Shown here one piece after another: positions 1,859-18,853 of a stretch of 20,863 nt of DNA; position 1 is the first letter of the stretch, and every line of letters starts with the position of its first letter. The stretch lies in the NCBI GenBank assembly GCA_026770585.1, contig MU646356.1, positions 67,578-88,440 on the forward strand, given 5' to 3'. A program made the translations under genes and the position numbers. Origin of the DNA: Baffinella frigidus. Taxonomy: Eukaryota > Cryptophyceae > Cryptomonadales > Baffinellaceae. Under the pieces are notes generated by a model, which saw nothing but the letters and a program-made list of their open reading frames with translations, was not told the origin of the DNA and ran no database searches.

Positions 1859-1962
1859 ATGGGTCGAACGGGGCTGCGGCTGCACTTGCTCCTGCTCGCA
1901 TCCGTCTTCTGCATCCTGCTCCGCCCGACCTCCCCGGCTCTGTCCAGCGAAGACGACTACAG
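1859..1962 (+). CDS. GT6 exon 1, start and signal-anchor
   Basis: The ATG at 1859 opens MGRTGLRLHLLLLASV, then FCILLRPTSPALSSEDDY. Basic residues precede a hydrophobic core, and the SPALSS stretch could be cleaved. The donor GTACCC is in phase 2. Without splicing the frame stops about 25 bases later. Confidence 0.8.
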
Positions 1963-4900
1963 GTACCCACCGACCCTCCCAGCTCCCCTCATTTGATGAT
2001 TTCGCAGATCTCCGGTTTCGAAGGACCCTCCAACCCCCATCCGCCCTGTCCAGGCTCGTATTCAGCGACGGGCTGGCATGGCCGGAGAGCGAGATGACTC
2101 CCCTTTACTATTCGGCGAGGAAATACGCAGCAGTCGGGGACTTTCGGCAGGCCAACGCGCTCTTCGCCTCCCTCGAACGTAAACTCGCGCGCGCTCAAGC
2201 TGCGGACGCTGCTGCTGGCGAGTACCATCTGGCGAGTACCATAGGCGTGGCGGCAAGGCCCGGAATGGCACGGCTGCAGGCGGTGGTTCTAGCTCGTCGT
2301 GCGGAGCTGGAGGCCCTGGCGTCGGCCTCTCCAGAGACGACCCTAGAAGAACGGCGCGCTGCAGCTGCGAAAGAGGTCCGTGCCGCAGAACTGATCTCCA
2401 GTGGAAAGTCTCAACCAACGCGGTGGTCCACCGCCATCAGTCCCCACGCGCATGTGTGTGGCAGCGCATGCTCAGTCCTGCCTGCCCACTCCCTAAACCC
2501 TACACCCAAAACCGCAAACCTCAAACCCTTGACCCTCGACCCTAAACCCTACACCTCAAACCCTAAAAACTGAACCCCCAACCCCCAACCCCCAACCCCC
2601 AACCTTAACCCCACACCCTCAACCCTAATTCCTAAAACCTAAACCTCAATCCCTAAACCCTGAACCCTACACCCTAAACACTGAACACTGAACCCTATAC
2701 CCCCCACCCCCCACCCTAAACCCTAAACTCGCAACCCTAAAACCTAAAACCTAAACCCTAAACCCTAAACCCCAAACTCTAAACCCTAAACTATAAATCC
2801 TACACCCTAAACCCCAAACCCCAAACCACAAACCTCAAATCCGAAACCCCAGACCCTAAACCCCTAATCCTAAATCCTAAACCTGAATCCAAAACTCTAA
2901 ACCGTAAACCGTCAACCGTAAACCGTAAAACGTAACCCGTAAACCGTAGACCGTACACCGTGAACCCTGAACCCTAAACCCGAAATCCTAAACCCTAAAA
3001 CCTAAACCCTAAACCCTTAACCCTAAACCCTAAACCCTAAACCCTAAAGCCTAAAACCCAAACCCCAAACCCTAAGCACTAAACACTCAACCCTAAAACC
3101 TAAACCCTAAACCCTAAGCCCCCAATCCTGAACCCAAAACCCCAAAACCCAAATCCCAAACTCAAAACACTGAACCCTACATCCTAAACCCCAAACCCCA
3201 AACCCCGCACCTGAAACCCTGCACCCTGAACCCCAACCCCCAAACCCCAACTCCAAACCCAGAACCCCACATACCAAGCTTCAAATCCCAAAACCCAAAC
3301 CCCAACCCTCAAACCTTAACCCCCCGTGACAGGCTGAGCTGCTGGGGCAAGCGCTGACAGTGTGCGTCGCCGGCGGGGAGGGGCTGCATTGCGACTCTGC
3401 ATGGGTGGGGTGGGGCGTCGGATCATGCTGCTCGATTGCCGGGACGTTAGCGCGGGCATTGCAGCGCCGCGGTGACATCGCAGGAACTCGCGGGGATGTC
3501 AAAAGGGCGCTCATGCTTGGACGGAGGCTGACTTCACTCGGGGGGGGGACGGGTGCTGCTGTGTGGAAGGGGCCGGGCGAGAGGAAGAGGGTGGTGTTGC
3601 TCACAGCGGTAAGTGGGGTGTTGTGCTCGCTGGTTGGTGTGTTGGTCGTAGGGGGCGGTTGAGGTGCCACGCTTGCAAGACATTCTCACAGCCAAAGTCT
3701 AGCTCTGCCTCAGTCGGGCTGGGTGGTCGTTTTTGTGAGGACACCAAATTAACTCAGGCAGAACTAGAAAGTGTTGTCAGGCAGCCTGATGTGTTGGGCC
3801 TCAGCGGATAGGAATCCAGGCTCTCACAACATGCTGTGATGTGCCTAGCGGTTTTCGATCAGCATGCATGCGTGTGGGGGCTGTCTGGGGCATTGCCCTG
3901 CTCTTCACACTTATATTCAGATGCTACTACATGTGGGAAAACAGGTAAGTGGGGCGTACCACGTATTCGTCGCGCCATTGATCGCGTCCGCAAGACGTTT
4001 TCTTCTCCTGGGAATCGCTGACCTGGTTCGCACGCCCATCCCCGTGTCCCACTTCTCGGACGTGCTTGTGTAACGGTTATTCCTGATCCGATTTCGTTCG
4101 CTACCACCACTTTACAAAGGATAGCTTTGCTGGGGCGGGACTGTCAGGAACGGTAGGCCGTGTCACGCATACGTGTCACTCGAAGGAACGAGCTAGCTCA
4201 GCAATCGCTGTCAATGATTTTCGTTGACGCGCGGCAGGAGTTTGTTGTGGTGTCCGACCGGGTGCGAGTTTCTCTCGCGTCACCACATGCTGGTCTCTTT
4301 CGTTCAGAGTTTGTAGAGCTAAACGATGAGGCGGGATAGGTGGCCTTGGGCCAGCAACGCATGATAGCTCTCCTCAGACGGCACTGACACGAGCGGTATC
4401 TGCAGGAATTTGTAGTGGTGACCGTCTGGGCCCTGGACGCATCAACCCGCCTCGGCCTCCAAGGCGCGCGCGTGACGTGGATAGCGACAGAGGAGATCTA
4501 TGAAACAGGACTTCCAGGACCGGTGCCAGGACCGGCCTACCGCGTAAATATCTGCCACTGATTCTCTTCGGTTGAAACCCGGCAGGAGTTTGTAGTGGTA
4601 TCCGACCAAGCGCTCGACGCGGAAACCCGCATCGGTCTCGGAGGCGCGCGTGTGACGTGGATTGCGCGGCCGGAACTGGGGTGGCCTCTGACTGCGATGA
4701 TGCGTTACCGCTCCTTTCTTGACGCATGGCATCTCGTCGGTCCGTGCCCCCCCATCTCCTAACCTGCAAATCGTAAATTAAGAATCTCTTGTTATACTGC
4801 ACGGTTCTGTTGGTATCTGTTAGTCTTGCTTTTTGAACGGGGTGTGTGGTACACTCGTGCTTCTGCAGATAGACCGTGCGGTTGAGGTTGAGCCGCATCT

Positions 4901-7900
4901 ACTTCGCCTTTCTTAATGTGAGAGACCTGTTAATTTAAAAATCTTGGGCAATGAAACACTGCACACATAATGATTTTTACTAGTCGTATAAATGCGGAAG
5001 TGACGGGACGTGATGGTTGTGCAGGACACGCGGACTACGCGTTCTTGATCGACGTCGATTGTCTATTCGTCGCTCCAGTCGGAGAAGAGGTCAATCGCAA
5101 CCCCACGGGACAGAGCACGACCCCCCCAACAGAATGATGTGCAGCAGTGCTACCCCTCGCTGCGCTGGCATTTTTTCTGCTCCTGATAAGCATGCGTGGC
5201 AATGCGCAAACGTGCATTCTGCACTAGCCTTGCAAACTTGGATTCTGTTCCTGACAAAGATGCATTCTGCTCCTGACAATGATGGCACTTGATGCTCGCG
5301 GGCGGTGTGGCATGTAATGTCCCGCACCTCGACGCACATGATGAAGCGGGTGGGGCGCAACATGCCATGTGGGGCGCATGATGCGGCCGAAAACTGCTCC
5401 AAATGTGATGTGGCATGGCAGATTCTGGGGCGAACGGTCGGAACTACGCACGCTGATAATGCCTTCTATTCTGGGGAGGAAGTCTCCGGGTACGTCACTG
5501 TTTTGTTATCTCGGGGATGGGGTTTGTGTTTGGTATAGCTTTGTCGAGGCTAAGATAGCAAACTGCTTTCTTGAGATAACTCAAAGCACACTCCACCCTT
5601 AAGATAACTCATAGAGAGCAAGAGAGAGAGAAAGAGATAGAGAGACAGTGCGTGTGAGAGAGCATGCGAGAGAGCGATAGAGAAATGAAGTGTGAGACGC
5701 AACCAGGCGCAGGAAACTGATGCAGCGCGCATCTCTCTGACAACGCGCCCCACCAGGCCCGGCAACCGCACCGCCCCGCCCACCCCACACCTCCCGAAGG
5801 CCTCCATGTGGCGCCAGTCGGAGGTGGCCGATGCGGCGACGCGCGCGAGAGGGGATGTTGGGTTCAGGCCTGGGGAGGCTGTGTACGAGCGGCGGGGGGG
5901 GTCGGCCGCTGCGATCCCGGAAGGCGGTGCGAGACCCTGAATTTCATGTCAAAACGGATTTATTTTCAAACTTTAGGATTCGATAGAAATTACTACACGA
6001 ATGCGTCAATATAACTAATTAAGATCATGATGTGTAGTAAATTGGATTGGCCACATGATTTGAACCAGACCCATTTTTGCACGAAATTGTAGCACCCTAG
6101 ACTACTGACCTCCTGCGGAAAGCGGAGCAGACGGCGGTGGAGAGTCCTGACAGGACTACACCCTGGTACAAAGGTCTCGCGCACCCTGGTACGAGACCTT
6201 TGTCAATCGCGCGTGCCTCCGTTCCCGCACTCACGGCCTCTGGGCATGTCTTCGCGAGGCCTGGCGCCGGGCTGGCGAGGCTAGTGAGGCTAGTGAGACT
6301 GCCTGGCGAGACTGCCTACAAAGGCGCGGGTGCTGTGCGCCCCGGTTGACTGGTTCTCGTCCCACACGGCCGTCTTTGCACATCGGTCCATGCATTGTCA
6401 TCTTACCAATTAGGAGTTACGAGATGACGAGTGTTTTTCTCCGGGGGCGGTACTCTCCGTGTCTGCTCTCTCTCCCGCTCTCGCTCTTTCTCTATGTATC
6501 TCACACACACACAAACACACCTTGGCGGCGTCACATGACCCTTCCGTGGTGGCGCGCAGGTGGAGAGAGGTACTACTACTCGGGGTTCCTGGGGGGCAAC
6601 ATCGCGGGGATGCGAGAGGTCTCCCTGTATCCCTGTCTCTCTCTCTCGCTCTGTATATCTCGCTCTATCTCTCTCTCTCTATCTATCTCTCCTTCTCTAT
6701 CTCTATACATATCTCGCTCTCTCTCGATGTGCAGCCCCAGACTGGGCATGTGGTGTGGCACGACAGGCCCGCATGCGGGTCTCACACCTCTTATTCAAGA
6801 CCTTGCGTTTCGGAATTCAACTTTGCACGGTTAAAACTGACAGCAGCGGGAGTGGTTGGCTGTGCAGGTGTTGGAGGGGGTGGTACAGTCAACTGAGAGC
6901 GACCTCGCCCGCGGGGTGCCGTCCTCCCACACGTTCATGTAGCCTGGCTAGATGCAAAAGCGACGGTAAGGGTTGATGATGCCCGGCACCAGCTGGTCGG
7001 GAGACACACATTGTTCTAGCCTGCCACCAGGCACGGAAACTCATGGTTGGGAAGGGACCTGACACACCTTCTCCCGCACATTGATACCTGGGTGGAAGTC
7101 TCCGCCGCAGCGAGGACCTCCCAACACCTCGTTATATCCTGGTCTGTTTGGCGGGTGTGACCGCGCTTCGGAAAGATCACGTATGCCCTGGTCCATGTGG
7201 GGTGTAGGGTTTTAGGGTTGAGGGTGTATGGTGTGAGGCGCGCACGTGATCCGTCCTGAGAGCGCTCGCCAGTGGTGGTGCGACTGCACGAAAAGACACT
7301 AAACCCTAAAACCAAAATCCCTAACCATCAACCCTGAACCCTGCACCCCTGCACCCTAAACACCCAACCCTGAATCCCAAACGATAAACCCAAGGTGGTG
7401 GCGCGAGTGCACGACGAGAGCCACGTCAATCGCTACTGGTCTCTACATCCTCCTGCGATCATCCTTACCGCGGTACTCTCCTCCCCTTCGCACCCTGCAC
7501 GATATGCCAGCAGCCGATTTCTCTCCACGCTCCGGCAGTCATCTTGACATCAGCATCCCCCCCCCCCCATCAACCCCCCCGCCCCGCCTTATGGGGTAAG
7601 GACATTGCTCCCTCCACCCTCCAGCGGGCATCTTCAATGCGGTAACCCTTCCCTCCTCGCTCACCCTGCACGATATGCCTTGGTAGTCGTCGATTTCTCT
7701 CTACGCTCCGGCGGTCATCGTGACAGCGGTGCCCCCCTCCTCCCTATCACCCTCCACGCCCCGGCTTATACGGTACGGACATTGTCAACACAGACGTATC
7801 ACGCAAGCATGTACATGTACAGCGGCAGTCGTGACCGACCCCCCATTGTGCTACCGCCCCTCTCGCCCTGCCTGCCAGCCTCTTTCCAGCTGCCCGCCCC

Positions 7901-8430
7901 TCCCACCAAGCACGCCCCGCCTTGGAAGTCAGTCGTCACTGACCCCAGGCAGTCGGCTCTGACCCCCCCCCTGTGCTACGATGGCAGCGCACATGTACCT
8001 GGAGGCAGGGATGCTGCGCGACCCCTCGCTGTGCCGCCCGGCGCTTTTCTATCCAAGGGACTGACCTCCCCCTCCGCGCTGTGCTGCTGGCAGGCGTACA
8101 TGTATCCGGAGGCAGGGATGTTGCACGACCCCGCGCTGTGCCGCCCGGCGCTTTTCTGTCCAAGGGACCACATGCATCCGTGGCTCTGGGCTCCGTGGCG
8201 CCCCCAGGTCACCCGCTTGGATTTTTGTGAAGGGTTTTGGGGGTTGGTTACTGTTTAGGGTTTGGGTGTTTGAGTACTGTTTATGGTTTGGGTGTTTGGG
8301 TGTTTGGGTGTTTAGTGTTGATGTTTATGGGTTGGGGGTTTGGGTGTAAAGTGTTGGTATAGTGTTGAGGGGTCAGGGAGTGGGTACGCTCGCGCCCCAG
8401 GTCACCCCCCGTACCACCGATTCCTATTGA
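1859..8430 (+). CDS. GT6-family glycosyltransferase (ABO / alpha-1,3-galactosyltransferase-like), 12 exons
   Basis: Joining 1859-1962, 2054-2375, 3333-3608, 3945-4025, 4586-4739, 5025-5089, 5824-5926, 6560-6618, 6868-6915, 7395-7472, 8094-8207 and 8401-8430 gives one open frame of 477 residues with every intron phase matched. Residues 1-30 form a signal peptide or type II anchor (LRLHLLLLASVFCILL), implying the secretory pathway/Golgi. A helical stem follows, then the GT6 core from about 227: VVLLTA-VSGAYHVFVAPL, EFVVVSDQ, GWPLTAMMRY, DYAFLIDVDCLF (DVD at 322-324), YERRGGSAAAIPEG (from 355), YYYSGFLGG (373-381), VHDESHVNRYW (E412, the catalytic Glu position of the family) and AYMYPEAGML. Known GT6 enzymes transfer Gal or GalNAc in alpha-1,3 linkage with retention. 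The vertebrate-type DVD is present rather than the bacterial NxN. Gly at the second G of YYxxGF matches an ABO specificity position, but donor sugar cannot be predicted. The last exon could instead read through 8208 to a stop at 8258 (484 residues). Confidence 0.85.
2054..2375 (+). CDS. GT6 exon 2, helical stem region
   Basis: The acceptor CAG|GC completes an Arg codon. Codes for LVFSDGLAWPESEMTPLYYS, then ARKYAAVGDFRQANALF and a long Ala/Glu/Arg-rich helix (LERKLARAQAADAAAGEY, LEERRAAAAKE). The start has a TPR-like look (YYSARKYAAVGDFRQANALF). The donor is GTCCGT, phase 0. Confidence 0.75.
2376..3332 (+). repeat. intron 2, mostly a degenerate CCCTAAA array (about 2485-3325)
   Basis: About 840 bp of C-rich telomere-like heptamers with many variants fills this intron in transcription sense. 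A sub-block at about 2899-2972 is homogenised to a CCGTAAA variant. The first bases (GTCCGTGCCGCAGAACTGAT) resemble the end of the intron plus exon 3 start (CCGTGACAGGCTGAGCTGCT). Confidence 0.85.
3333..3608 (+). CDS. GT6 exon 3
   Basis: The acceptor GACAG|GC closes the heptamer tract. Codes for AELLGQALTVCVAGGEGLHC, a Gly-rich stretch, LARALQRRGDIAGTRGDVK, and finally GPGERKRVVLLTA, the first beta strand of the GT6 fold. The donor is GTAAGT, one of the few canonical ones here. Confidence 0.8.
3609..3944 (+). other. intron 3, whose first bases copy the exon 4 start
   Basis: The intron begins GTAAGTGGGGTGT and exon 4 begins GTAAGTGGGGCGT, 12 of 13 identical and both preceded by a G-ending codon/AG. 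One copy acts as donor, the other as coding Val-Ser. No gene is seen inside. Confidence 0.75.
3945..4025 (+). CDS. GT6 exon 4
   Basis: Codes for VSGAYHVFVAPLIASARR then FLLLGIADL, matching the first helix of GT6 enzymes (Y..FV..L..SARR.FL.G). Phase 0 at both ends. The donor is GTTCGC. Confidence 0.8.
4238..4340 (+). repeat. decayed copy 1 of GT6 exon 5
   Basis: After GGCAG the frame reads EFVVVSDRVRVSLASPHAGL and stops at 4337-4339 (TAG). It matches the first eight codons of exon 5, then diverges. The preceding intron sequence (CGCTGTCAATGATTTTCGTTG) also matches that before exon 5. Confidence 0.75.
4406..4561 (+). repeat. in-frame copy 2 of GT6 exon 5
   Basis: After CTGCAG the frame reads EFVVVTVWALDASTRLGLQ then GARVTWIATEEIYETG, ending at a TGA at 4559. 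It parallels exon 5 (EFVVVSDQALDAETRIGLG, GARVTWIARPE) through two thirds of its length but lacks the SDQ and the WPLTAMMRY motif. It could be a decayed duplicate or a rare alternative exon. Confidence 0.75.
4586..4739 (+). CDS. GT6 exon 5 (functional copy)
   Basis: The acceptor CGGCAG|GA is in phase 0. Codes for EFVVVSDQALDAETRIGLG, GARVTWIARPELGWP and LTAMMRYRSFLDAWHLV, ending in phase 1 at GTCCGT. It contains the GT6 equivalents of V(F/V)TDQ and WPxxTMMR. It is the third and only complete copy of this exon. Confidence 0.85.
5025..5089 (+). CDS. GT6 exon 6, DVD motif
   Basis: The acceptor GTGCAG|GA completes Gly. Codes for HADYAFLIDVDCLFVAPVGEE. The DVD binds the nucleotide sugar via Mn2+ in GT6 enzymes, and VGxE follows it in the family. 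The donor is GTCAAT, phase 0. Confidence 0.88.
5090..5823 (+). other. intron 6 with GA microsatellite and copied exon edge
   Basis: No exon is recognised inside. A GA-rich microsatellite lies at about 5613-5690. The last bases repeat the exon 6 end: GCTCCAGTCGGAG at 5071-5083 and GCGCCAGTCGGAG at 5811-5823 share CCAGTCGGAG, so both splice junctions sit in copies of one sequence. TGCTCCTGA(T/C)AA repeats occur at 5179 and 5270. Confidence 0.65.
5824..5926 (+). CDS. GT6 exon 7
   Basis: Codes for VADAATRARGDVGFRPGEAV then YERRGGSAAAIPEG, the family's YERRxxSxAxIPxGEG block. An alternative in-frame acceptor after CGCCAG at 5817 would add Ser-Glu. It ends in phase 1 at GTGCGA. Confidence 0.85.
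5927..6559 (+). other. intron 7, with AT-rich block, hairpin and CT microsatellite
   Basis: An AT-rich stretch (about 5940-6115) differs in composition from its surroundings. A perfect 12-bp inverted repeat, ACAAAGGTCTCG at 6168-6179 and its complement at 6192-6203, follows. CT-rich and CA-rich tracts start near 6465. The intron start GTGCGAGA resembles the exon 8 start GTGGAGAGA. Confidence 0.6.
6560..6618 (+). CDS. GT6 exon 8
   Basis: The acceptor GCGCAG|GT is in phase 1. Codes for GERYYYSGFLGGNIAGMRE, equivalent to GDFYYxGGFFGG, which lines the donor-sugar pocket. The donor is GTCTCC, phase 0. Confidence 0.88.
6619..6867 (+). repeat. intron 8 with CT/CTAT microsatellite
   Basis: A pyrimidine microsatellite runs from about 6634 to 6726. 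No coding signal is seen. Confidence 0.7.
6868..6915 (+). CDS. GT6 exon 9
   Basis: The acceptor GTGCAG|GT. Codes for VLEGVVQSTESDLARG, the helix between GGFFGG and HDES in GT6. Phase 0 at both ends. The donor is GTGCCG. Confidence 0.8.
6916..7394 (+). repeat. intron 9 with opposed heptamer tracts and decayed exon 10 copy
   Basis: A short G-rich tract at 7200-7235 is followed by a C-rich tract at 7299-7392. Between them, 7272-7299 (GTGGTGGTGCGACTGCACGA...) is a degenerate copy of the exon 10 start (GTGGTGGCGCGAGTGCACGA...). Confidence 0.7.
7395..7472 (+). CDS. GT6 exon 10, HDES catalytic motif
   Basis: The acceptor CCCAAG|GT. Codes for VVARVHDESHVNRYW then SLHPPAIILTA. HDES carries the catalytic glutamate of GT6; the Trp usually before it is Val here. 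The PPAIILTA stretch aligns with the family's KPTKVLSP. The donor is GTACTC, phase 0. Confidence 0.88.
7456..7795 (+). repeat. tandem duplication of exon 10 end plus intron, about 167 bp units
   Basis: The segment 7456-7622 is repeated, diverged, at 7623-7795. Shared pieces include CACCCTGCACGATATGCC, CGATTTCTCTC.ACGCTCCGG and a GCC(T)TTAT..GGTA.GGACATTG end. The unit includes the exon 10 donor. Confidence 0.75.
7981..8062 (+). repeat. decayed copy of GT6 exon 11
   Basis: Reads like HMYLEAGMLRDPSLCRPALF then YPRD and a stop at 8063. It aligns with 8087-8168 over about 82 bp including the TGGCAG acceptor, with one base missing after the AG. Confidence 0.8.
8094..8207 (+). CDS. GT6 exon 11
   Basis: The acceptor TGGCAG|GC, phase 0. 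Codes for AYMYPEAGMLHDPALCRP, ALFCPRDHMHPWLWAPW and RPQ. YMYPE continues the LSPxYxYPE motif of the family, and PRDH resembles the terminal K(N/D)H. Either it ends at donor GTCACC or it runs on to a TAG at 8256. Confidence 0.82.
8208..8400 (+). repeat. intron 11: G-rich heptamer tract between direct repeats
   Basis: CGCCCC(C)CAGGTCACCC occurs at both ends (about 8199-8214 and 8392-8407), so donor and acceptor both lie in the repeat. The interior is a GTTTGGGTGTTTGGG-type variant array on the plus strand. Confidence 0.75.
8401..8430 (+). CDS. GT6 exon 12 (terminal, alternative)
   Basis: Codes for VTPRTTDSY and a TGA if intron 11 is removed. Its start equals the intron 11 start (GTCACCC). The alternative C-terminus without splicing is VTRLDFCEGFWGLVTV. 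Confidence 0.45.
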   Translation, partial: VTPRTTDSY

Positions 8431-8437
8431 TCGGAAA

Positions 8438-8766
8438 ATGGCGCGCACTCCCGAGATTAACGTCGAAAGTGGCACGTCTCAAAACACACGTAAACATCAA
8501 TTACTAGGAGTAACGGTGGATGCTGGCACATGCGACGCTCGGTGCCATGGTCTCAAGCGCCAGAACCTCGCTCGCCGGTGGTAGCAATGCGTGGCAGCAA
8601 TGCTGTGCAGCGATGCTTGGTCGCTACGCGTGCGCGCGCGCGCCGAGCCATGCCGCTGCCTGCACCGGAATGGGACGTGTGGAATGCGAGAACCTCCGGT
8701 ATTAGGAGTAACAGTGGATGCTACCAGACTACGGTGCCATGCTGGTCCGAAATGCCAGACCTGACG
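8438..8766 (+). CDS. gene 3 candidate 5' exon(s), unresolved
   Basis: The ATG at 8438 has a good context (GAAAATGG) and opens MARTPEINVESGTSQNTRKH then QLLGVTVDAG. A diverged copy of GGAGTAAC.GTGGATGCT at 8507 recurs at 8704. The frame reaching 8766 (TTVPCWSEMPDLT) would join exon 8818 in phase 0 via a GTGGAT donor at 8767. How these pieces connect is unclear. Confidence 0.35.
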
Positions 8767-11700: not shown

Positions 11701-14700
11701 CTACACCCTACCCCCCACACCCTACACCCTACACCCTACACCCTTAACCCTAACCCCGAATCCCTACGAGCTCACGCGCTGGACAATGCAGATTATGTGC
11801 GCGCACCCTGCAGATGATGCGTCCGACCTTTCAGAGTATGCATAATCGTCGGACCATGCAGATTATGTGTGCGCATCCGGCCGCGCTGTGCGAAGCGTTC
11901 ATCCCCTTCAATCGCGCACTCGTGGTAACCCTCAATCTTTCATACTAAGCCTCAAACCCTACACCCTACAACCCCAACCGCTAAACCACGACACCTCGAC
12001 CCTAACCGCCTAACCACGAAACTCTCACCCTACACTCTCAAGACTGAACACTAAAGCCGCTCTTTGTCATCCTCTCATCTCCCCTATACATGCATTCCCT
12101 TCTGGTTTGCAAAGGCATCTTCGGGTCTTGGACTGACTGCAGTCCACCGGGGTGCAGGTATATCTGACGACGCGCCTGGACCTTGGGAGGCTGCATCGGA
12201 CGGCCGCCCTCCAGAGGTGGTCTTTTTCTTGTTCCTCTTGTTCTTCTTGTTCTTGATTACTCTTGATACAGGTCCTAGATAGGTCGTGAGGTGTAGATAA
12301 GTCTTGAGGTGAGTGATTCAAAAGATGAAGCCCTCCAGAGGTGAAGGCCACGTGATGCCTGCAGAAATGCAGCACGATTGATGTTTCAGAGGTGAACCCC
12401 ACTTGATCATCCTGAGGAGAGAAGCACTCTTGATGCAAGCCTCGAGAGGTGAAGGGCACTGGATCCTCGAGAGGTAAAGGATGCGTGAGGTACCCCTGTA
12501 GATCAGATAATGCGACCACACCCCTTCTCCGACGCCCCTTCTGCCCCTGCGGCCCCTCACTATCCCTTAAGTGGCCAGTAGGCTAACACGCTCACTCTGA
12601 TCCACGACGATACTCGCCGTTGCTGGCGACATGAGTCATGTTCCCGGAAACAGAAGCGCCTACATGAGTTGGACTTTGCACTCTCAGCCGATAGTTGCAT
12701 CGAAGACTGGATCGAATAGTTGAGCAGTGTTCGGGTCCATCGCCGTGTATCAGTCCCTTCATCACACCCAGTCCCGCTCCCACCTGCTCAAACGTGAAGT
12801 TGAATCGATGATTGGAGCATCGATAAGTGGAGCGATGATCGGAGCACTGCGTGTGTGGGCCTGCGGCACTACAACTCGCGCCCCCTCAACCCTAGCCCCT
12901 AACCCTCTTGTGCGTGGGCGGGTATATAGGTGGCTTGATACGCTGGGGCAGATCGCAACACGGGCAGACGGCGCGATCGTGGCGAACAATCACTACGATG
13001 CTGCCTACCTCGACTACTTCACCGGGTCTGTCCCAAACCCTCTGGTCCAAAAACGAACCTGTCGTCAACCCTCGACTCCAAACCCTAGACTCTGAATTCC
13101 TCAACCCTAAACTCTAAACAACCCCAAACTCTAAACTGATCACTCAACCCTGAACCCGACACCCTCAACCCTGTTCCCCAAACCCTCAACCATGAACCTT
13201 AAACCATAAACCCCAAACATGCTTCCCCTGCTGCCGCATCCTTTCGTGGTTGGCGCTGCGCTGTCCACGGTAGGTTTCGCAGATTGCGGCAATCACCGGA
13301 CAGGTCTCGATCGGCCACTTAGCAGATCAATGGCTCAAGTAAACCCCACTTGGAGTGTGACATTCAAAGGACCCGGCGGGCCTCCTGTAAATACACGTAT
13401 GTGTCACTTACTTATGAAGGGGTGATACACGGTGTATCACCCCTTCATATGTAAGGGCTGGTGTGCATGCCCCCCCCCGCGTGTGCATGATTATATTCAT
13501 GTTTGTCATTACTCTCAAGCCTGGAGATGATTGAGTGGTCAAACAATGTTTGAGTGAGTGATCCAAAAATGTGTGAGCCTCACGAGAAGCCCGATCCGGT
13601 GCAGGATTCGAGCGCGGGTGATCCCGACGCTGGCGCGTCATCGCACCTCACCTCGCGCCTGCCCGCCACCACGCTCCGAGGTCGGTCTCTGTCTTAGTCA
13701 ATCGGCGCTTCCAATTGAATGCATTTAGATCAGGACTCCGTACAAACTTGCCTGTGCAAAAAGCATCTGAATGTATTGAATTTTGCAGAGCTGGGATGTG
13801 CTTTCATCCCCTGACCGCCGGGGTATGCGCTCCCATTAGACGTGAAGGTGCAGGGCTTGAAAGAGGTACTGGCGGCAATGGAGGGACGGATGCACAGGGA
13901 TGAAACCCCACATCCGAAACCTTGCTCCCTGCACCCCAACCCCTAACCATCAACCATGAACCCGCGTTTGATCGCAGGTGCTGGTCGATGCCTGCGACGC
14001 GACTCGGTTTAGGGTTGGGGGTCCCTAAAACCCAACCCTCAAACCTTACACCGCTATCGATGGAGGGAGTGATGCATGGTGATGGCAAGCAATGCTCACT
14101 CGCAGGTGCTGAGTGACGACTCTGACGCGACTCGGATGCAAAGGGATGGAACCCCACAACATACAACTTACACGCTGCACCCCAATCTCTTACCCTCATC
14201 CATCAACCCGCGTTCGCTCGCAGGTGTTAATCGACGCGTGCGACCCGACTCGATGCCCACCCTTCCGCCAGCAGGGGGTCCATCCCACCCGAATTCATCA
14301 ACCGCAATCCCAACCGTTAGCACCCCGCCAACCCCCACCACACATGCGGTAGGATCAACCCCTACCACATGTGGCGCCACCAAACACCACACGCCTGCCA
14401 ACCCGCACCGCACATGGCGTCTGGGCGCTGCAGCGCAAGCGGGATAGCATCGCTTAATGCCCAGGTGTTTACTGTTACCAGGCAAGTATCACCGCCCTGC
14501 GCGTGTCCGCAGTGTTTTGACACGACACATCGTGTGGGCGGCGTGTGGGCGCTGCAGCACAAGTGGGCTGTCATCACTTACCGTCGAAGGCTGGCATCCC
14601 CTGACTGTCTAAGGCTGTCATCTCCGTTACCGCCCAATGCTGACATAATCGTTTGACAAGACACCTTGCTGACCCGCCTCGAAAAACAGGTTGCGAGCCT

Positions 14701-17700
14701 CATCTCGTCTCTCAGAGAAGCACAGACCAAGAGAAGAGGCCAGGCCGAGGGGTATACGCTCGTGGAACTACGGGAGGTTTATCCGCGGTACCAGAGCCGA
14801 GATTTGGAGCGGCATCTTGCTATCGTGTACCTTCCGTACCAGGTCGCTCTTGGGGCAGGGTTCAGCGTTTCGGTTTTAGGCGTTAGGTTTGCGAGTTTAG
14901 GCGCAGGGCCGTTGCAATTGAAACTGCAGGGGTTAGATGCAGGGCCATTACATTTCAAATAAAGGCATCAGAGCGGCTGCTACGCACCTCTTTCCTGCAG
15001 GACGGGTGGACTCGCGGGGTGTACCTCCAGACAAGGTGTCGTGGACTGTAGGGTTTAGGGTTTGGGGTGTGGGGTAAACCTTAAAACCCTCACAAATTCA
15101 GTGTAAACCTTACATCCCAATCAAACCAGTTAGTGACTGTCGTTGTTGGCAGGTGTCGGTGATGGCACTGTTCGAGCGGTTGGCGGCTGGCATCCCCGTA
15201 TTCGCCCCGTCCCTCGACCTCCTCGTCGAGGTCCTTTCAACAACACCATCTCGATTTGATTTACATTTTAATCTGAAGGTTCGCCATGCTGTTCCCTCTT
15301 GTTTGGCCATGGTGTTCGCTCTTGTTTAGCCATGGTGTTTCCTCCCCCGTGCGCCTTCCCCCTCAACGGTTGGCAGCAGGCATCCCCGCCTTCGCCCCGT
15401 CCCTCGACCTCCTCGTCGAGGTGCTCTTCTCCTCTCAACCGGATTGGCGGGGATGCTCCGTCGCTCAATATCCTCGTCGAAGTTCCCTCATCAGCAAAAA
15501 GTGTCGTGATTTACATTTTTATTTGATGTGGTTGACATTTTAGATCTGGTGTGTACCCATGGTGTGTACCCATGGTGCTCCCCCCGCCTCCCCCGTGCGC
15601 CTCCCTCTCCTCCCTATGTGCAGAGGGAGTTGCCTCCCGCGGGGAACATTTCAGGATCAGGGTTGAGGGTTTCGACTTGAGGGTAGGCATTCACCTGAGA
15701 TCTGCGTCTTCCGAGGAGGCGACCCCCGCTGAGTCAGTAATTGATTTGACTCTCAGTCACCAGGTGATTTGCATTTAAGTCGCTAGGTGATTTTTTGCTG
15801 AGTGAGTTCCTTTCCATTCCATGAGGCATTCCGCAAGGGTTTGGTGTCCCGGGAGGTTCAGACACTGAGCGGAGCACACCCGAGCGAGTTAATGACGCGC
15901 GCGGTCGAACGGATAACTCAGGGCCGGCGTGGTGTTGTGAGGGCTCGACCACTGGCTGGGGGCTGGCGTGGTCTTGTAAGGTTTTGAGCACTGGCTGAAG
16001 GCTGGCGTGGCGGTGTCAGAGTTTGCACACTGGCTGGGGGATGGCGTGGTTTTTGCGAGGGTTGGAACACTGACTGAGAGATGGCGTGGTGTTGTGAGGG
16101 GTGGGACCAACAACTGAGGGCTGGCTTGGTGCGCAGTGGCACATGCGGTTCGGGCTTGTTTTCGAGCGCCGCGCCGACTGGCAGGTGTCCTTCCCCCGTC
16201 TTATCTCAGATAAACACTTTTAAAAGTCGTTTTCCTAAGTCAACTCCCCCACAAATCTGTCAACTTATGCTTTACTCTGCGAGCCCGTACGCATAAGTCG
16301 CCGGATTTGTGGGGGAGTTGACTTAGGAAAACGACTTTTAAAAGTGTTTATCTGAGATAAGTCCCCAACCACCAGTCACCCTCTGGCGATTCCCTATCGC
16401 ATCACATAGCGAGACAGTCCTTGATTGCTCATATATCGCACCGATTGGCAGGCGCCACCCCCACCCTCCCGGCCCTGCTTTGACGCCGATTGCTGAAGCT
16501 CTTCGCGCATTAGGGGGTAAGGGGGTGGGGGTGCTCACACCCTGGGGTCGCCAACAGGCGCTCCCCACTAGCATCAACAGGCGCTCCCCACTAGCATCAA
16601 CAGGCGCTCCCCACTAGCATCGCTGATCAGCGAGAGAGATCTTGATTGCTGCCAACTCGGCCGCCATCGTGAATCGGCTTCTGTGCCTGGCAACTACGCA
16701 TGCGAGCGTCTCCACTCGGCGATGTGCCAGGAGAGTCATGTCCTGTCATTCCACGCATATCTCCCGAAAACCAAATCCTACATCTGCCTGGCGGTGATAG
16801 GGTATCAATGTGGTGTGTTCCCCGGACAAATGCAGTGCGGGTTGACCTGTCCGCATGTGTGCCTTCTCTACATGACTCAGTTGCTTTACAGCACAGAAAA
16901 ATACCACGCTCGCATGCCTCTCCGCGCGGGCTGACCGTTCCGTGTGGGGTGACATTTCACAGACGGCCGGGCAGCGCAGAGGGAGTCTTGTGGGACCGCA
17001 CCCAAATGCCTCAGCGGCACTTCGCGACCACGATCCAAACGACGAACGCGACCCCGCTGCTGTCAGGTCTCTCCCATCCACGATGGGGCACCGGTTATGG
17101 ACCTACCACGTCCTCCGTCGCATTTCCTCTGCGCCTTCCCCCGTGCCACTGATCGTTCTCTCAGACACTGCATTTACCGCGCGCGGGACTAGCTGACATG
17201 CATATTCTGTGCCGTGACACTTTGCATGCGAGTTTTTCGCGGCATCGACAGCTCGCTCCTTGGCAGTCTTTTGACGAAGCTGTGTGTGTGTTTGTGTTGG
17301 CGCAGATACTGGCTCGGCCTGAGCGACATTTATACCACGCCAGGTATGTCCCGTGTGTACCGTCTCCTCACTCCAAGCATCTTTTCCTGTCTGCACTATG
17401 TATGGTCATCGACAGCAAAGGGATGACATTTGAAACTGATGCACCAGCCTTGTACACAAGGCCTCAAAATGGTGTGACCTCAATTTTGAGTAACCCCTGT
17501 AACGCATGTGTATTGACCGGCAGGCGTGCTGCTTTTCAACTCATGGGAGCACCTTCTCGACCTCCTTCGCGAAGTTGACCTATGCGAGGCACTCCCCGTG
17601 CCGTATATCCTACATTACACGTTGCGCATGCTGAACACTAGGTTATTGCGTTGGCCGCCGCGGTCGTGAGACCTCACTCGAGTGACGGTCACTCCAGGTG

Positions 17701-18853
17701 CGAGGCACTTCCCTTCTGTATGCTTCCTTCTTCATTCCTGCTTCCTCCTTTATATTTCCACCATCATCGTTCCTCATTCATATGTCCTCCTGCATCCTGC
17801 ATCCTGCATCCTGCATCCTACATCTTTCTGCATTGCTTTTGCGTGTTGCTTCTTTGTTCTTGCCTCATCCTTCCGCATGAATCATGTATTTTGCCTCATC
17901 CATCCGTTCCCCGCTTTCATAAAATCACCATCCAACGTCCAAAAGGCGCTGCATTCGTGCCGACTGAAAAAACGGGGGGTTCCAATCTGAAAGTGGTGAG
18001 GATTTCAAACTTGAAAGAGGGGGGGGTCGCAAGGTTGACAAGAGGCGGGGTTGGCAGGTATCGCGCGGGTTGCTGGAGGAGCAAGGGACGCGGGAGGAGG
18101 AGGTGCACTCTGCGTGGAAGGAGGTACTCCCCTTGCTGTGGCTTACATCCTATCCCTTAAGTGTCTAGTAGGCGCATACGCCCTACCGTAGGGTCCTAGG
18201 ACCTGGCTGGGACCTTTTCCCATGGGCACTTAATGGATAGCACGACCACGGGACATTCAGAGGCAAACGAGGATTGACGGTAGCCCGATACACAGCTAGC
18301 TCTATCATTGGAAGGATACACTCAGGAGGTGAGCAACATACGAATATGGGTGCGTGAATCTGCACCCGCGCCCCTACTGGCATCCCTCACACACGCGGGC
18401 AAGCACCATATATCAAGGACCGTGGAAAGTCGATGTTATGTTGAGGAAGCTCGCCAAGTAGCCCCAGGAGATATGTCAGAAACCGTGCCTGCCCCTCGCG
18501 ATGCCCCCCCCGACCACAACCGCGCGATACCTCAGACACGGCCCTTCTGGGGGTACAGTCCCGTGCAGGATGACTGGAGCCCTGTGGATACAGTGTCGTG
18601 TAGGATAACCGGTGTGACTTAAGGACATGGCCCGCGTGATGTTGAAGCATGGCCTTTTCACAGAACCAGGTCCGGTGTCCGCCTGTGTTGGGAGCTCGAA
18701 GAACCTCACGGACCTGAAGGACGCTTGACCTGCTCTGTGTGGCGGCAGGTGTTGTCAGAGGTTGTCGGGGGGGCGCTGCCAGGGGGACGGCCTCTGCCGC
18801 GTGGCACCTTCCAGGATGCAATGCGTGAGCTGTACCCCTCGCTGGCCCTGTGA
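8438..18853 (+). CDS. conserved algal-type protein of unknown function, possibly glycosyltransferase-like, 17 or more exons
   Basis: Exons 8818-8901, 9181-9288, 9791-9877, 10290-10331, 10982-11029, 11862-11924, 12158-12216, 12930-13025, 13789-13822, 14224-14277, 14690-14842, 15153-15230, 16975-17066, 17306-17343, 17524-17597, 18058-18123 and 18749-18853 join without a phase conflict into 426 codons plus stop. Blocks in order: EWDVGAGWWPGLW, YVLWNADLHIGPIGDV, SLSAHCASRGTCATSLK, VLSRENAMEL, IMCAHPAALCEAF-IPFNRA, LTTRLDLGR, IVANNHYDAAYLDYFTG, VLIDACDPTR, ELREVYPRYQSRDLERH-LAIVYLPYQ, VSVMALFERLAAGIPVFAPS, HDPNDERDPAAVRYWLGLSD, FNSWEHLLDLLREVDL and FQDAMRELYPSL. From memory these belong to a family common in algal genomes and annotated hypothetical; GIPVFAPS-type loops suggest a nucleotide-sugar fold, but no function is proven. 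The 5' end is unresolved: an ATG at 8438 (MARTPEINVESGTSQ) is a candidate. An exon may be missing between 15231 and 16974. It could also be fused to the GT6 gene. Confidence 0.75.
8668..8833 (+). repeat. three copies of the GAATGGGA(C/T)GT exon start
   Basis: GAATGGGACGTGTGG (8668), GAATGGGGCATGG (8779, after CGCAG) and GAATGGGATGTGGG (8818, after TTGGCAG, used). The second soon hits a TGA. This is the same exon-start amplification seen elsewhere in the window. Confidence 0.65.
8818..8901 (+). CDS. gene 3 exon, EWDVG block
   Basis: The acceptor GGCAG|GA, phase 0. Codes for EWDVGAGWWPGLWGSK then PRFVPRILNLAK. The donor is GTCCCT. The next 280 bp (8902-9180) is pyrimidine-rich intron with CTCTC/CTCGCATCTC repeats. 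Confidence 0.75.
9181..9288 (+). CDS. gene 3 exon, NADLHIGPIGDV block
   Basis: The acceptor ATCAG|GA, phase 0. Codes for DKAKLVGGAAGSTGGGNR then YVLWNADLHIGPIGDVGE. The donor GTGCGCTCCC translates as VRSLL, resembling the next exon's VMRAL. Confidence 0.75.
9289..9790 (+). repeat. intron with CAACCC hairpins, 23-bp inverted repeat and (CTCG)n
   Basis: CAACCCT/AGGGTTG repeats with small hairpins (GGGTTGAGC-gat-GCTCAACCC near 9334; CTGAGAGTGCG at 9412-9422 with its complement at 9437-9447). A 23-bp inverted repeat, two mismatches, at 9582-9604 and 9621-9643. Then (CT)n and about ten CTCG units, 9657-9752. Confidence 0.75.
9791..9877 (+). CDS. gene 3 exon, SLSAHC block
   Basis: The acceptor GGTAG|GT, phase 0. 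Codes for VMRALGVDVREESLSAHC then ASRGTCATSLK. The spacing of SLSxHC and GTCATxLK is a family hallmark as I recall it. The donor is GTGCCC. Confidence 0.78.
9878..10289 (+). other. intron, no gene recognised
   Basis: Contains CAATTTGCAA/AATTGCAAA-type short repeats around 9925 and 10120-10148. No coding block of the family is seen. Confidence 0.5.
10290..10331 (+). CDS. gene 3 exon, VLSRENAMEL
   Basis: The acceptor GGGCAG|GT. Codes for VLSRENAMELGDNP, continuing CATSLK in the family order. The donor GTGAGC is canonical. A short C-rich heptamer tract (10337-10378) follows immediately. Confidence 0.7.
10332..10981 (+). repeat. intron with opposed heptamer tracts and pyrimidine repeats
   Basis: The C-rich tract at 10337-10378 and G-rich tract at 10776-10822 are opposed. 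Between them CTC(T/G)CATATCTTCCCGCGCTCTC-type repeats echo those at 8910-9060. Copies of GCTGAATACGTGAA/GAACACGTGAAC lie at 10871-10960. Confidence 0.6.
10982..11029 (+). CDS. gene 3 exon, VFEAYISGG
   Basis: The acceptor GAGCAG|GT. Codes for VFEAYISGGGPADADL. The donor is GTTGCC, phase 0. It fits the FFxxY...D position before the CAHP block. Confidence 0.65.
11136..11375. mobile_element. 240-bp foldback/MITE-like inverted-repeat element
   Basis: The left arm TATTGTAGAA...GGCTCCGCGCGG (11136-11160) is matched inversely by CCGCGCGGAGCC...TTCTACAATA (11351-11375). Inner arms also pair (GGAGGTCAGGAACGTC against GACG...TCTCCTGACCTC). The centre is AT-rich. It lies in an intron of gene 3 and has no coding capacity. 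I see no clear target-site duplication. Confidence 0.7.
11496..11861 (+). repeat. two decayed copies of the IMCAHP exon start, with heptamer array between
   Basis: ATTATGTGTACGCCCCCTGC (11521) and ATTATGTGCGCGCACCCTGC (11792) copy the functional exon start at 11862, each preceded by a related stretch ending in CAG (GAGCTCACGCG..GGAC..CAG). A CCCTACA-type array (11612-11758) separates the first two. Confidence 0.8.
11862..11924 (+). CDS. gene 3 exon, CAHPAALCEAF block
   Basis: The acceptor ATGCAG|AT. Codes for IMCAHPAALCEAFIPF then NRALV. The (S/A)HP...CE...PFN pattern is central to the family. The donor GTAACCCTCA translates as VTLN, like the next exon's VYLT. Confidence 0.8.
11925..12157 (+). 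repeat. intron with C-rich heptamer-like tract
   Basis: Degenerate CCCTACA/ACCGCTAA-type repeats from about 11944 to 12055, in transcription sense. Confidence 0.7.
12158..12216 (+). CDS. gene 3 exon, LTTRLDLGR
   Basis: The acceptor GTGCAG|GT, phase 0. Codes for VYLTTRLDLGRLHRTAALQ plus AG of Arg. The donor GTGGTC is in phase 2. Joins RWLDTL of the next exon. Confidence 0.75.
12203..12500 (+). repeat. amplified exon-junction motif CCAGAGGTG
   Basis: The exon end plus intron start CTCCAGAGGTGG recurs inside the intron as CTCCAGAGGTGAAGG (12333), TTCAGAGGTGAAC (12386), CTCGAGAGGTGAAGG (12441) and CTCGAGAGGTAAAGG (12467). Each is a potential AG|GT site. CGTGAGGTACCCCTG at 12484-12498 matches the end of the 117-bp element at 19727. 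Confidence 0.65.
12930..13025 (+). CDS. gene 3 exon, IVANNHYDAAYLDYFTG
   Basis: The acceptor TATAG|GT, phase 2. Codes for WLDTLGQIATRADGA then IVANNHYDAAYLDYFTG. The donor is GTCTGT, phase 2. The VANNxYDxxYxxYFTG block is the best-conserved part of the family in my memory. Confidence 0.82.
13026..13788 (+). repeat. intron with C-rich tract and 24-bp-arm palindrome
   Basis: A CCCTAAA/CCCTCAA-like tract at about 13030-13222. A palindrome with 24-bp arms and one mismatch at 13407-13430 and 13432-13455 (core GAAGGGGTGATACAC). The remainder shows no exon I can defend. Confidence 0.75.
13789..13822 (+). CDS. gene 3 small exon, FHPLTAG
   Basis: The acceptor TTGCAG|A completes Gly in phase 2. Codes for AGMCFHPLTAG. 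The donor GTATGCGCTCCC is in phase 0. Both phases match neighbours, but the exon is only 34 nt. Confidence 0.5.
13978..14277 (+). repeat. three copies of the VLxDxxDxTR exon start
   Basis: After a CGCAG, 13978 reads VLVDACDATR, 14106 VLSDDSDATR and 14224 VLIDACDPTR. Upstream intron text (AACCCGCGTT..(T/C)CGCAG) is also shared by the first and third. Units carry GGGATG(G)AACCCCACA and heptamer pieces. Confidence 0.8.
14224..14277 (+). CDS. gene 3 exon, VLIDACDPTR
   Basis: Codes for VLIDACDPTRCPPFRQQG. Phase 0 at both ends, donor GTCCAT. It is chosen over the two upstream copies because it is open to an in-phase donor. Confidence 0.6.
14278..14689 (+). repeat. intron with diverged tandem duplication
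   Basis: GGCGTCTGGGCGCTGCAGCGCAAGCGGG (about 14417) is repeated as GGCGTGTGGGCGCTGCAGCACAAGTGGG (about 14538), about 121 bp apart. GCTG(G/T)CATC repeats follow. No exon is accepted here. Confidence 0.6.
14690..14842 (+). CDS. gene 3 exon, ELREVYPRYQ..HLAIVYLPYQ
   Basis: Codes for VASLISSLREAQTKRRGQ, AEGYTLVELREVYPRYQ and SRDLERHLAIVYLPYQ. The acceptor AACAG|GT is preferred for the AG|GT pattern; an acceptor at 14660 would add LLTRLEKQ but breaks phase with the previous exon. The donor GTCGCT begins an intron translating as VALGAGF, like the next exon's VSVMALF. Confidence 0.82.
14843..15152 (+). repeat. intron with degenerate G-rich then C-rich heptamer pieces
   Basis: TTTAGGC/TTTAGGG-like sequence at about 14870-14920 and 15047-15077, then C-rich CCTTAAAACCC to about 15120. 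No gene is seen. Confidence 0.6.
15153..15230 (+). CDS. gene 3 exon, GIPVFAPSLDLL
   Basis: The acceptor TGGCAG|GT. Codes for VSVMALFERLAAG then IPVFAPSLDLLVE. The donor is GTCCTT, phase 0. Confidence 0.82.
15371..15485 (+). repeat. tandem copies of the FAPSLDLLVE exon end
   Basis: 15371-15420 repeats 15181-15230 with only a few changes (AAGIPAFAPSLDLLVE), offset 190 bp. A third, weaker copy at about 15443-15482 reads GDAPSLNILVEV. GATTTACATTTT follows the first and third copies. Confidence 0.8.
15913..16135 (+). repeat. 39-40 bp minisatellite, about 5-6 copies
   Basis: GGCGTGGT.TTGT(G/A)AGG......CACTGGCTG units recur at 15926, 15965, 16004, 16043, 16083 and 16123 within the intron of gene 3. 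Confidence 0.85.
16200..16361. mobile_element. perfect palindromic foldback element, 58-bp arms
   Basis: 16200-16257 and 16304-16361 are exact reverse complements (arm begins CTTATCTCAGATAAACAC and ends CCCCCACAAATC), 58 of 58. The 46-nt loop carries a further ACTTATGC/GCATAAGT pair. It lies in an intron of gene 3, is AT-richer than its surroundings and encodes nothing. It could be a recent MITE or a hairpin RNA precursor. Confidence 0.9.
16552..16620 (+). repeat. three perfect 23-bp tandem repeats
   Basis: The unit CAACAGGCGCTCCCC-ACTAGCAT is repeated exactly three times without spacers. Intronic. Confidence 0.9.
16621..16974 (+). other. intron end, no exon resolved
   Basis: Open frames exist but none shows a family block. 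The family would be expected to have about 30-40 more residues between DLLVE and HDPND, so an undetected exon may lie here or in 15486-15912. Confidence 0.35.
16975..17066 (+). CDS. gene 3 exon, HDPNDERDPAAVR
   Basis: After GGGCAG the frame codes RRGSLVGPHPNASAALR then DHDPNDERDPAAV and AG of Arg. The end is sure (donor GTCTCT, phase 2); the exact start is less so. Confidence 0.72.
17306..17343 (+). CDS. gene 3 exon, YWLGLSDIYTTP
   Basis: A 38-nt exon after GCGCAG. Completes Arg, then YWLGLSDIYTTP and the first base of Gly. The donor is GTATGT. Confidence 0.75.
17524..17597 (+). CDS. gene 3 exon, FNSWEHLLDLLREVDL
   Basis: The acceptor CGGCAG|GC, phase 1. Codes for VLLFNSWEHLLDLLREVDL then CEALP. 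The donor is GTGCCG, phase 0. Confidence 0.75.
17598..18057 (+). repeat. intron with (CATCCTG)n and pyrimidine-rich tract
   Basis: A four- to five-unit CATCCTG heptamer repeat at 17786-17824 inside a long TTCCTGCTTCCTCC-like pyrimidine tract. No coding block. Confidence 0.7.
18058..18123 (+). CDS. gene 3 exon, VSRGLLEEQGTREEEV
   Basis: The acceptor TGGCAG|GT. Codes for VSRGLLEEQGTREEEV then HSAWKE. The donor GTACTC is in phase 0. Read-through would end in the 91-bp element at 18150, so splicing is favoured. Confidence 0.72.
18150..18240. mobile_element. 91-bp MITE-like element, 14-bp inverted ends
   Basis: CTATCCCTTAAGTG at 18150-18163 is matched by CACTTAATGGATAG at 18227-18240 (13 of 14). 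The inside carries GGGTCCTAGGACC. A related single end (TATCCCTTAAGTGGCCAG) lies near 12562 and a related element at 20373. Confidence 0.65.
18749..18853 (+). CDS. gene 3 terminal exon
   Basis: The acceptor GGCAG|GT, phase 0. Codes for VLSEVVGGALPGGRPLPRG then TFQDAMRELYPSLAL and TGA at 18851. It joins AWKE of the previous exon. Confidence 0.78.
   Translation: MLSEVVGGALPGGRPLPRGTFQDAMRELYPSLAL

Follow-up and report, generated by a model that had tools for sequence, protein, structure and literature searches.

Introns in four genes of the cryptophyte Baffinella frigidus contain truncated copies of the exons that flank them, and these copies follow a rule of sides: those lying upstream of an exon repeat its 5' part, and those lying downstream repeat its 3' part. 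The presence of such copies, with this geometry, in the assembly is stated with very high confidence, and they are probably real in the organism as well. The explanation that we prefer, at slightly better than an even chance, is that old introns have gathered truncated copies of flanking exons by unequal exchange, partly between diverged homologues. Judged from sequence, the process would be one of repeated partial-exon duplication, in which introns grow rather than are born.

The locus, its repeats and its duplications

The window, i.e., the whole stretch of 20,863 nucleotides that was analysed, is nuclear DNA of B. frigidus (contig C54, positions 67578-88440, of a 382-Mb assembly). The joined peptides of the window exons matched a single protein, P0001 ('hypothetical protein T484DRAFT_3155859 [Baffinella frigidus]', 164 aa), and the translation of seven spliced window exons from position 15162 is identical to it letter for letter. 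P0001 begins at the ATG at 15162, inside the first of these exons; the start of that exon at 15153 is putative and derives from a CAG acceptor and the open frame.

15153-18853, + strand: gene of P0001 (T484DRAFT_3155859), from the spliced translation
15153-15230, 16137-16184, 16963-17066, 17306-17343, + strand: exons 1-4, from the spliced translation
17524-17588, 18058-18123, 18749-18853 (including the stop), + strand: exons 5-7, from the spliced translation
15231-16136, 16185-16962, 17067-17305, + strand: introns 1-3, exactly defined by P0001
17344-17523, 17589-18057 (GC donor), 18124-18748, + strand: introns 4-6, exactly defined by P0001

A search of the organism's own genome with P0001 led to a diverged paralogue on contig C544 (stretch L029), which has introns at the same residue and in the same phase as five of the six in the P0001 gene; the sixth differs. 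Because these positions and phases are common to both genes, five introns of the P0001 gene are old, and the window appears to be an intron-rich nuclear locus with old introns. A Pfam search of P0001 and the window exon peptides gave no family match, and P0001 had no match among solved structures and no relative in viral contigs; the confidence of its structure model (mean pLDDT 43) was too low for use. The window yielded no Rfam match and no tRNA, and protein searches with its other exon strings returned the window's own ORF alone, or nothing. The GC donor of the annotated intron at 17589 reads TGCGAG/gcactc (here and below, the slash marks the splice junction), and TGCGAGGCACT is repeated about 115 nt further 3' within the same intron (17589-18057).

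Long degenerate telomere-like repeats (CCCTAAA and TTTAGGG variants) occur on both strands of the window, mostly between exons, and two of the stretches lie between direct repeats.

2490-3330, 946-1200, 7297-7394, 8224-8383, 11613-11767, 13028-13216 and others, both strands: telomere-like repeats
7272-7414 (7272-7291 and 7395-7414), + strand: 20-nt direct repeat, 18/20 identical, around a C-rich telomere-like stretch, lacking AGGT
8198-8407 (8198-8214 and 8392-8407), + strand: AG/GT direct repeat of 16-17 nt around a G-rich telomere-like stretch

Passages of a study of human and horse (PMC7215372) describe interstitial telomeric repeats inserted at staggered double-strand breaks, with flanking duplication at 3 of 66 horse loci. 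The window resembles this in that 2 of 18 examined telomere-like stretches have flanking direct repeats of 16-20 nt, but here the telomere-like sequence is highly degenerate, and direct repeats of this kind are no rarity across the window (random flanks of the same spacing elsewhere in this repeat-rich sequence scored at least 26 in 41 of 2339 trials). As a general cause, the insertion of telomere-like sequence with duplication of the target was rejected: only 2 of 15 blocks had a flanking repeat score of at least 20 (vs 4 of 210 mispaired), and the background was high.

Other repeats include a near-perfect, foldback/MITE-like palindrome (16200-16361, 71-nt arms, 96%) in the annotated intron 16185-16962 and a 240-nt MITE-like element with long imperfect terminal inverted repeats (11136-11375). 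An element of 105 nt whose ends are inverted (TATCCCTTTAGTGGCGAG...) occurs, together with related pieces, at 20373-20477, 18150-18218 and 12551-12591, with copies of about 85% identity on L029 (5509-5612, 8065-8170 and 9390-9495). Another dispersed repeat (19725-19843 and 20479-20593, 76% identical) has several copies on L029 at about 8420-9812, on both strands.

After masking of telomere-like and simple repeats, the window contained 18 duplication pairs at most 400 nt apart (median offset 136 nt), compared with none in 60 shuffles, and two further pairs more than 400 nt apart; several of the near pairs form one array and are non-independent. Of 20 fetched 10-kb stretches of the genome, the eight with readable sequence (52,367 bases) gave 78 pairs within 400 nt, compared with none in three shuffles per stretch, and 89 pairs beyond 400 nt, so that duplication is not solely local. 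Window duplications that carry pieces of exons lie at 4208 and 4402 (exon at 4586), 7959 (exon at 8094), 13978 and 14106 (exon at 14224), and 15367 and 15455 (exon ending at 15230).

15177-15235, + strand: 3' part of exon 15153-15230 and donor start, counterpart of the copies in the next intron
15367-15425, + strand: truncated copy of the end of exon 15153-15230 with GT, 54/59 nt identical, in intron 15231-16136
15455-15526, + strand: second, more decayed copy of the end of exon 15153-15230 and the intron start, 72%
4586-4739, + strand: probable intact exon (EFVVVSDQALDAETRIGL...) of a provisional gene model, with open frame, CAG acceptor and GT
4402-4486, + strand: upstream copy of the 5' part of exon 4586-4739 with acceptor, 79%
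4208-4259, + strand: second upstream copy of exon 4586-4739, acceptor and exon start, 79%
8094-8207, + strand: probable intact exon (AYMYPEAGMLHDPALC...) of a provisional gene model
7959-8061, + strand: head-to-tail tandem copy of 8061-8168, comprising the intron end and the first 75 of the exon's 114 nt
13887-14223, + strand: tandem array with 91-nt units at 13887-13977 and 14133-14223 and exon-start copies at 13978 and 14106
1859-3608, + strand: probable first exons 1859-1962 (signal-peptide-like), 2054-2375 and 3333-3608, without annotated-protein support

The copy at 15367-15425 has an intron-exon score of 88, compared with at most 26 for every other intron-exon pair of the P0001 gene; that at 15455-15526 fell below the threshold of 30 with the exon alone as query and lies outside the 41-copy set described below. 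The array at 13887-14223 precedes the probable exon 14224-14277, and the exon start thus stands at 13978, 14106 and 14224. The intron before exon 3333-3608 consists mainly of degenerate CCCTAAA repeat. In the protein search no annotated protein matched exon 4586-4739 or exon 8094-8207; for all window sets except 15367/15455, the parent exons are likely but without annotated-protein support. Differences of the window copies from their exons number 15/12/30 at first, second and third codon positions overall, and 3/3/1 in the tandem pair 7959-8168, which gives no hint of coding constraint. Regarding 4402-4486 and 4582-4666, both have an acceptor and 8 of 14 changed codons are synonymous, which makes this copy the most promising candidate alternative exon in the window.

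Truncated exon copies in four genes

Copies were counted, at an intron-exon score of at least 30, in the window P0001 gene, its paralogue on C544, an actin gene (C217) and a second actin-family gene (C869); three of these genes thus lie outside the window, and the models of the two actin-family genes were built on a human actin sequence. In one blastn comparison most matches were telomere-like or transposon-like, and the exon matches alone were taken. The actin gene has 19 copies in six introns and the second actin-family gene nine copies in eleven introns; the C544 paralogue also has truncated exon copies within its introns, and the annotated window gene contributes only one of the 41 copies above threshold. 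The introns of two one-intron beta-tubulin genes contain no exon copies.

Across the four genes, 24 of the 58 pairs of an intron with a flanking exon contain a copy, and none of the 200 non-flanking pairs does (Fisher 3e-18). The centre of every upstream copy (20 of 20) lies in the 5' half of the exon, and 18 begin at its nucleotides 1-3; 20 of the 21 downstream copies are centred in the 3' half, and 19 end at most 3 nt from the exon end. A single copy is full-length, the other 40 being truncated. The exon copies measure 19-73 nt, at distances of 60 to about 1100 nt from the parent exon. A second, overlapping set of 35 copies leaves out the C869 gene; the junction is reached by 33 of them, and each of these 33 retains AG, GT or GC there or a few nucleotides away. 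Compared with their exons, the 41 copies show differences of 15/20/62 by codon position, i.e., 35 of 97 outside third positions, and 8 indels; indel lengths include the frameshifting values 1, 2 and 5 (among 9 indels). Four distinct versions of actin exon 5 occur on each side, and three of the shared exon 3 part.

Origin of the copies

The copies fall into two classes. In 24 of the 41 the adjoining intron flank is homologous as well (differences 9/17/27 by codon position, mean identity 0.932), whereas 17 have no detectable homology in the intron flank (6/3/35, mean identity 0.929), and the codon-position contrast between the classes is significant (Fisher p 0.005). Examples of copies that run on into matching intron are L029 816 and 1777 and actin 2935 and 6934; examples that halt at the junction despite 97-100% exon identity are actin 3133-3204 and 6162-6205. 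The 24 flank-homologous copies fit duplication on the same chromosome. Because third-position differences (35 of 44 in the flank-unrelated class) mark the divergence of functional genes, the 17 remaining copies look like the exon ends of another functional copy, and they may stem from an allele or homeologue that has diverged so far that its introns can no longer be aligned; the same excess could also mean selection on the copies. Given that the copies are real, there is about an even chance that part of them came from diverged homologues.

Gene pairs alike in exons only do occur in the assembly. The beta-tubulin genes G000:C1176:66549-67793 and G000:C99:231910-233154 (L037 and L038) differ by 0/0/47 in exon 2, with no gap, and neither intron (133 nt in one gene, 366 nt in the other) appears in any blastn match. 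This pair also offers a handle on the speed of non-coding DNA turnover in B. frigidus.

In the mechanism that we envisage, end joining or crossing-over at non-equivalent points of sister or homologous chromosomes would duplicate a segment spanning one splice junction, comprising an intron end and exon start for upstream copies and an exon end and intron start for downstream copies. One exon would stay intact, joined to the other half, and the truncated copy would come to lie buried in the intron; such duplications would be tolerated because the intact exon survives. A duplication of the whole exon would instead be spliced into the mRNA and presumably be removed by selection. We calculate that, with duplicated segments near 180 nt and exons near 80 nt in length, more than one third of the hits ought to take in a whole exon, and the single full-length copy among 41 suggests that whole-exon duplications have been removed. 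The more specific proposition that homologous gene copies resemble each other in exons only, and that exchange between them at non-equivalent points leaves exon stubs with live splice sites in introns, is put forward tentatively. Insertion of a new exon nested in an old one was rejected: one nested insertion should give matching ends, but the upstream and downstream fragments do not pair (p 0.12).

The main rival is an assembly artefact, in which pieces of different haplotypes or homeologues, alike in their exons but with unrelated introns, were joined into one sequence, so that a stub stands beside an exon and no duplication took place in the cell. We consider it unlikely, though to be taken seriously. 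It predicts the same geometry, stub splice sites, unrelated flanks and synonymous differences, all of which are found in the 17 flank-unrelated copies (6/3/35), and gene pairs of the necessary kind are at hand in the beta-tubulin genes on C1176 and C99. It does not predict the homologous intron flank of the other 24 copies, nor the decay seen in the copies as a whole, since the tubulin genes differ by 0/0/47 without gaps, but the copies by 15/20/62 with 8 indels. Two haplotypes also allow fewer versions than the four per side of actin exon 5 and the three of the exon 3 part, and the perfect head-to-tail unit at 7959-8168, with its 3/3/1 differences, is no haplotype pair.

A purely tandem origin on one chromosome, with later gene conversion by the intact exon keeping the exon part of each copy similar while its intron side drifts, is improbable. 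It accounts for the geometry, for similarity that ends precisely at the junction and for the kept splice sites, and a tandem origin is directly visible in the 24 flank-homologous copies; conversion and neutral decay should not, however, give mainly third-position differences, as are seen in 35 of 44 cases among flank-unrelated copies. According to our own arithmetic, a conversion mixture would place a fraction of about 0.45 of the differences at third positions, and the pooled value (62/97) is higher (p 1e-4), with differences within a family being non-independent.

More doubtful still is the view that the copies are functional, as alternative exon ends or splice-site decoys under selection. 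The third-position excess (15/20/62) and the splice dinucleotides kept in 33 of 33 junction-reaching copies of one set would agree with it, as would copy 4402-4486, which is open over 27 compared codons, has an acceptor and is synonymous in 8 of 14 changed codons. Most copies cannot be whole exons, however, because 40 of 41 are truncated, and there are frameshifting indels (lengths 1, 2 and 5) among them. Mutually exclusive tandem exons consist of several adjoining diverged copies of one exon, each of them a whole exon with both splice sites. The present copies are like them in forming a row of diverged versions of one exon, but differ in their truncation (40/41).

Intron birth and published cases

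A preliminary description of this DNA had proposed that its introns begin with a copy of the next exon and were born locally by tandem duplication of AGGT-containing segments, a model of intron gain treated in passages of the review PMC3443670. Its claims were tested on the pairs it had named and on protein-defined introns, rather than on its own models of 34 introns. In a pairing test, intron starts were compared with the starts of their own next exons and with those of all mispaired exons. For 31 introns of six genes, defined by spliced protein alignment (six each in the window gene, the paralogue and the actin gene, eleven in the second actin-family gene and one in each of two tubulin genes), three scores gave p 0.29, 0.50 and 0.08. 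The six annotated introns (four scores, p 0.27-0.53) and nine introns without the named pairs (four scores, p 0.19-0.52) behaved likewise. Lower values were obtained for the seven introns of the kind drawn in the preliminary description (p 0.014-0.084), a set that includes the four named pairs, and for all 13 window introns (p 0.003, 0.018, 0.008 and 0.16), where the named pairs drive the result. The similarity of intron start and next exon was rejected as a general pattern on two intron sets.

Among the named pairs, that at 3609 and 3945 does share GTAAGTGGGG (12/13 nt, shuffle p 0.006), but 3945 is not borne out as an exon start: with AAACAG in front of it, the sequence there looks like another 5' splice site (CAG/GTAAGT), and no exon start was seen there in the window analyses. 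The repeat named at 8208 and 8401 is real and longer than claimed, with GCGCCCCCAGGTCACCC at 8198-8214 and GCGCCCCAGGTCACCC at 8392-8407 (p 0.002; the background of 41/2339 at a score of at least 26 applies here too). Splicing of this stretch is putative: spliced or unspliced, the reading frame runs into a stop in no more than 20 codons. For the intron at 13866, the first 60 nt show no significant likeness to the first 60 nt from 13978 (p 0.31), nor does 13866-13886 to any of the exon starts at 13978, 14106 and 14224 (p 0.13, 0.38 and 0.95); its first 60 nt match the 60 nt from 14106 (0/500 shuffles), in register only from nucleotide 22, and 13887-13977 aligns as a duplicate of 14133-14223. 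The supposed echo of exon 15153 in the intron at 14843 (VALGAGF/VSVMALF) is at chance level (p 0.39). Exons after an acceptor do commonly begin with G (22 of 31 protein-defined introns), though below the claimed 29 of 34; a GT start was found for 11 of 31 (claimed, 18 of 34), and AG/GT stands at both ends of six of the 31, which a general AG/G preference fits equally well.

The statement that duplication has acted repeatedly within single genes holds good, in view of the window duplications and of the exon copies in four genes, and some duplicated segments include AG/GT junctions. Of 748 AGGT pairs spaced by 60-400 nt, 42 have flanks in common, more than for any other of 12 tetramers of the same composition (mean of the other 11, 3.7%, range 2.4-5.0%; pairs non-independent), and this weak excess over the control tetramers led us to reject AGGT-specific duplication. 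Intron birth is a highly improbable account in general, though conceivable for single introns: it can draw on that slight excess, on one AG/GT repeat of 16-17 nt (8198-8214/8392-8407) and on a pairing that becomes significant once the named pairs are counted in, but the 31 protein-defined introns show no clear paired excess, the pairs named at 14843 and 13866 are non-significant, five of six intron positions are common to the C544 paralogue, and the copies are partial exons within introns that are required anyway, not exonic AGGT segments turned into whole introns. The next-exon 'echo' of the preliminary description is a partial view of the truncated exon copies.

The nearest published case, judging from parts of PMC4974935, is a potato gene in which a new intron arose from a duplicated intron-exon piece and in which an 83-bp tandem duplication lies inside an intron. 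As in that gene and in the AGGT model, within-gene tandem duplication in B. frigidus adds extra AG and GT sites, and as in the potato gene the plain tandem copies repeat existing intron-exon structure: 24 of 41 copies cross one junction with both intron and exon sequence, the 5' part lying upstream (20/20) and the 3' part downstream (20/21). Whereas the AGGT model has an exonic segment become a new intron, here truncated exons are buried in pre-existing introns; and unlike the potato gene, the buried pieces are repeated around many exons of one gene, with no new intron demonstrated. Direct repeats at intron borders are reported in PMC11782384, and those at gained Daphnia introns in PMC3443670. 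The repeat at 8198-8214/8392-8407 is comparable as a short direct repeat near splice sites, but the exon copies are longer (19-73 nt), lie farther off and follow the side rule. The main-text passages of an introner paper (PMC9860276) make no mention of Baffinella, Guillardia or cryptophytes, and a literature search of partial coverage found no paper describing truncated exon copies in cryptophyte introns.

Should the buried exon pieces be an artefact, the same pattern would serve as a simple flag of mixed haplotypes in intron-rich algal assemblies. If they are real, they would be a direct record of intron growth by one-junction duplications that survive since the intact exon remains; the near-lack of whole-exon copies (1/41) would measure selection against whole-exon duplication, and the codon-position pattern would show whether sisters or diverged homologues had exchanged DNA. 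They would also call for caution in gene finding and in scans for intron gain, since exon-like pieces with good splice sites sit in introns. If exchange between homologues is true, the introns of B. frigidus would hold, genome-wide, a fossil record of exchange between homologous chromosomes, together with a steady supply of spare splice sites and of intron growth.
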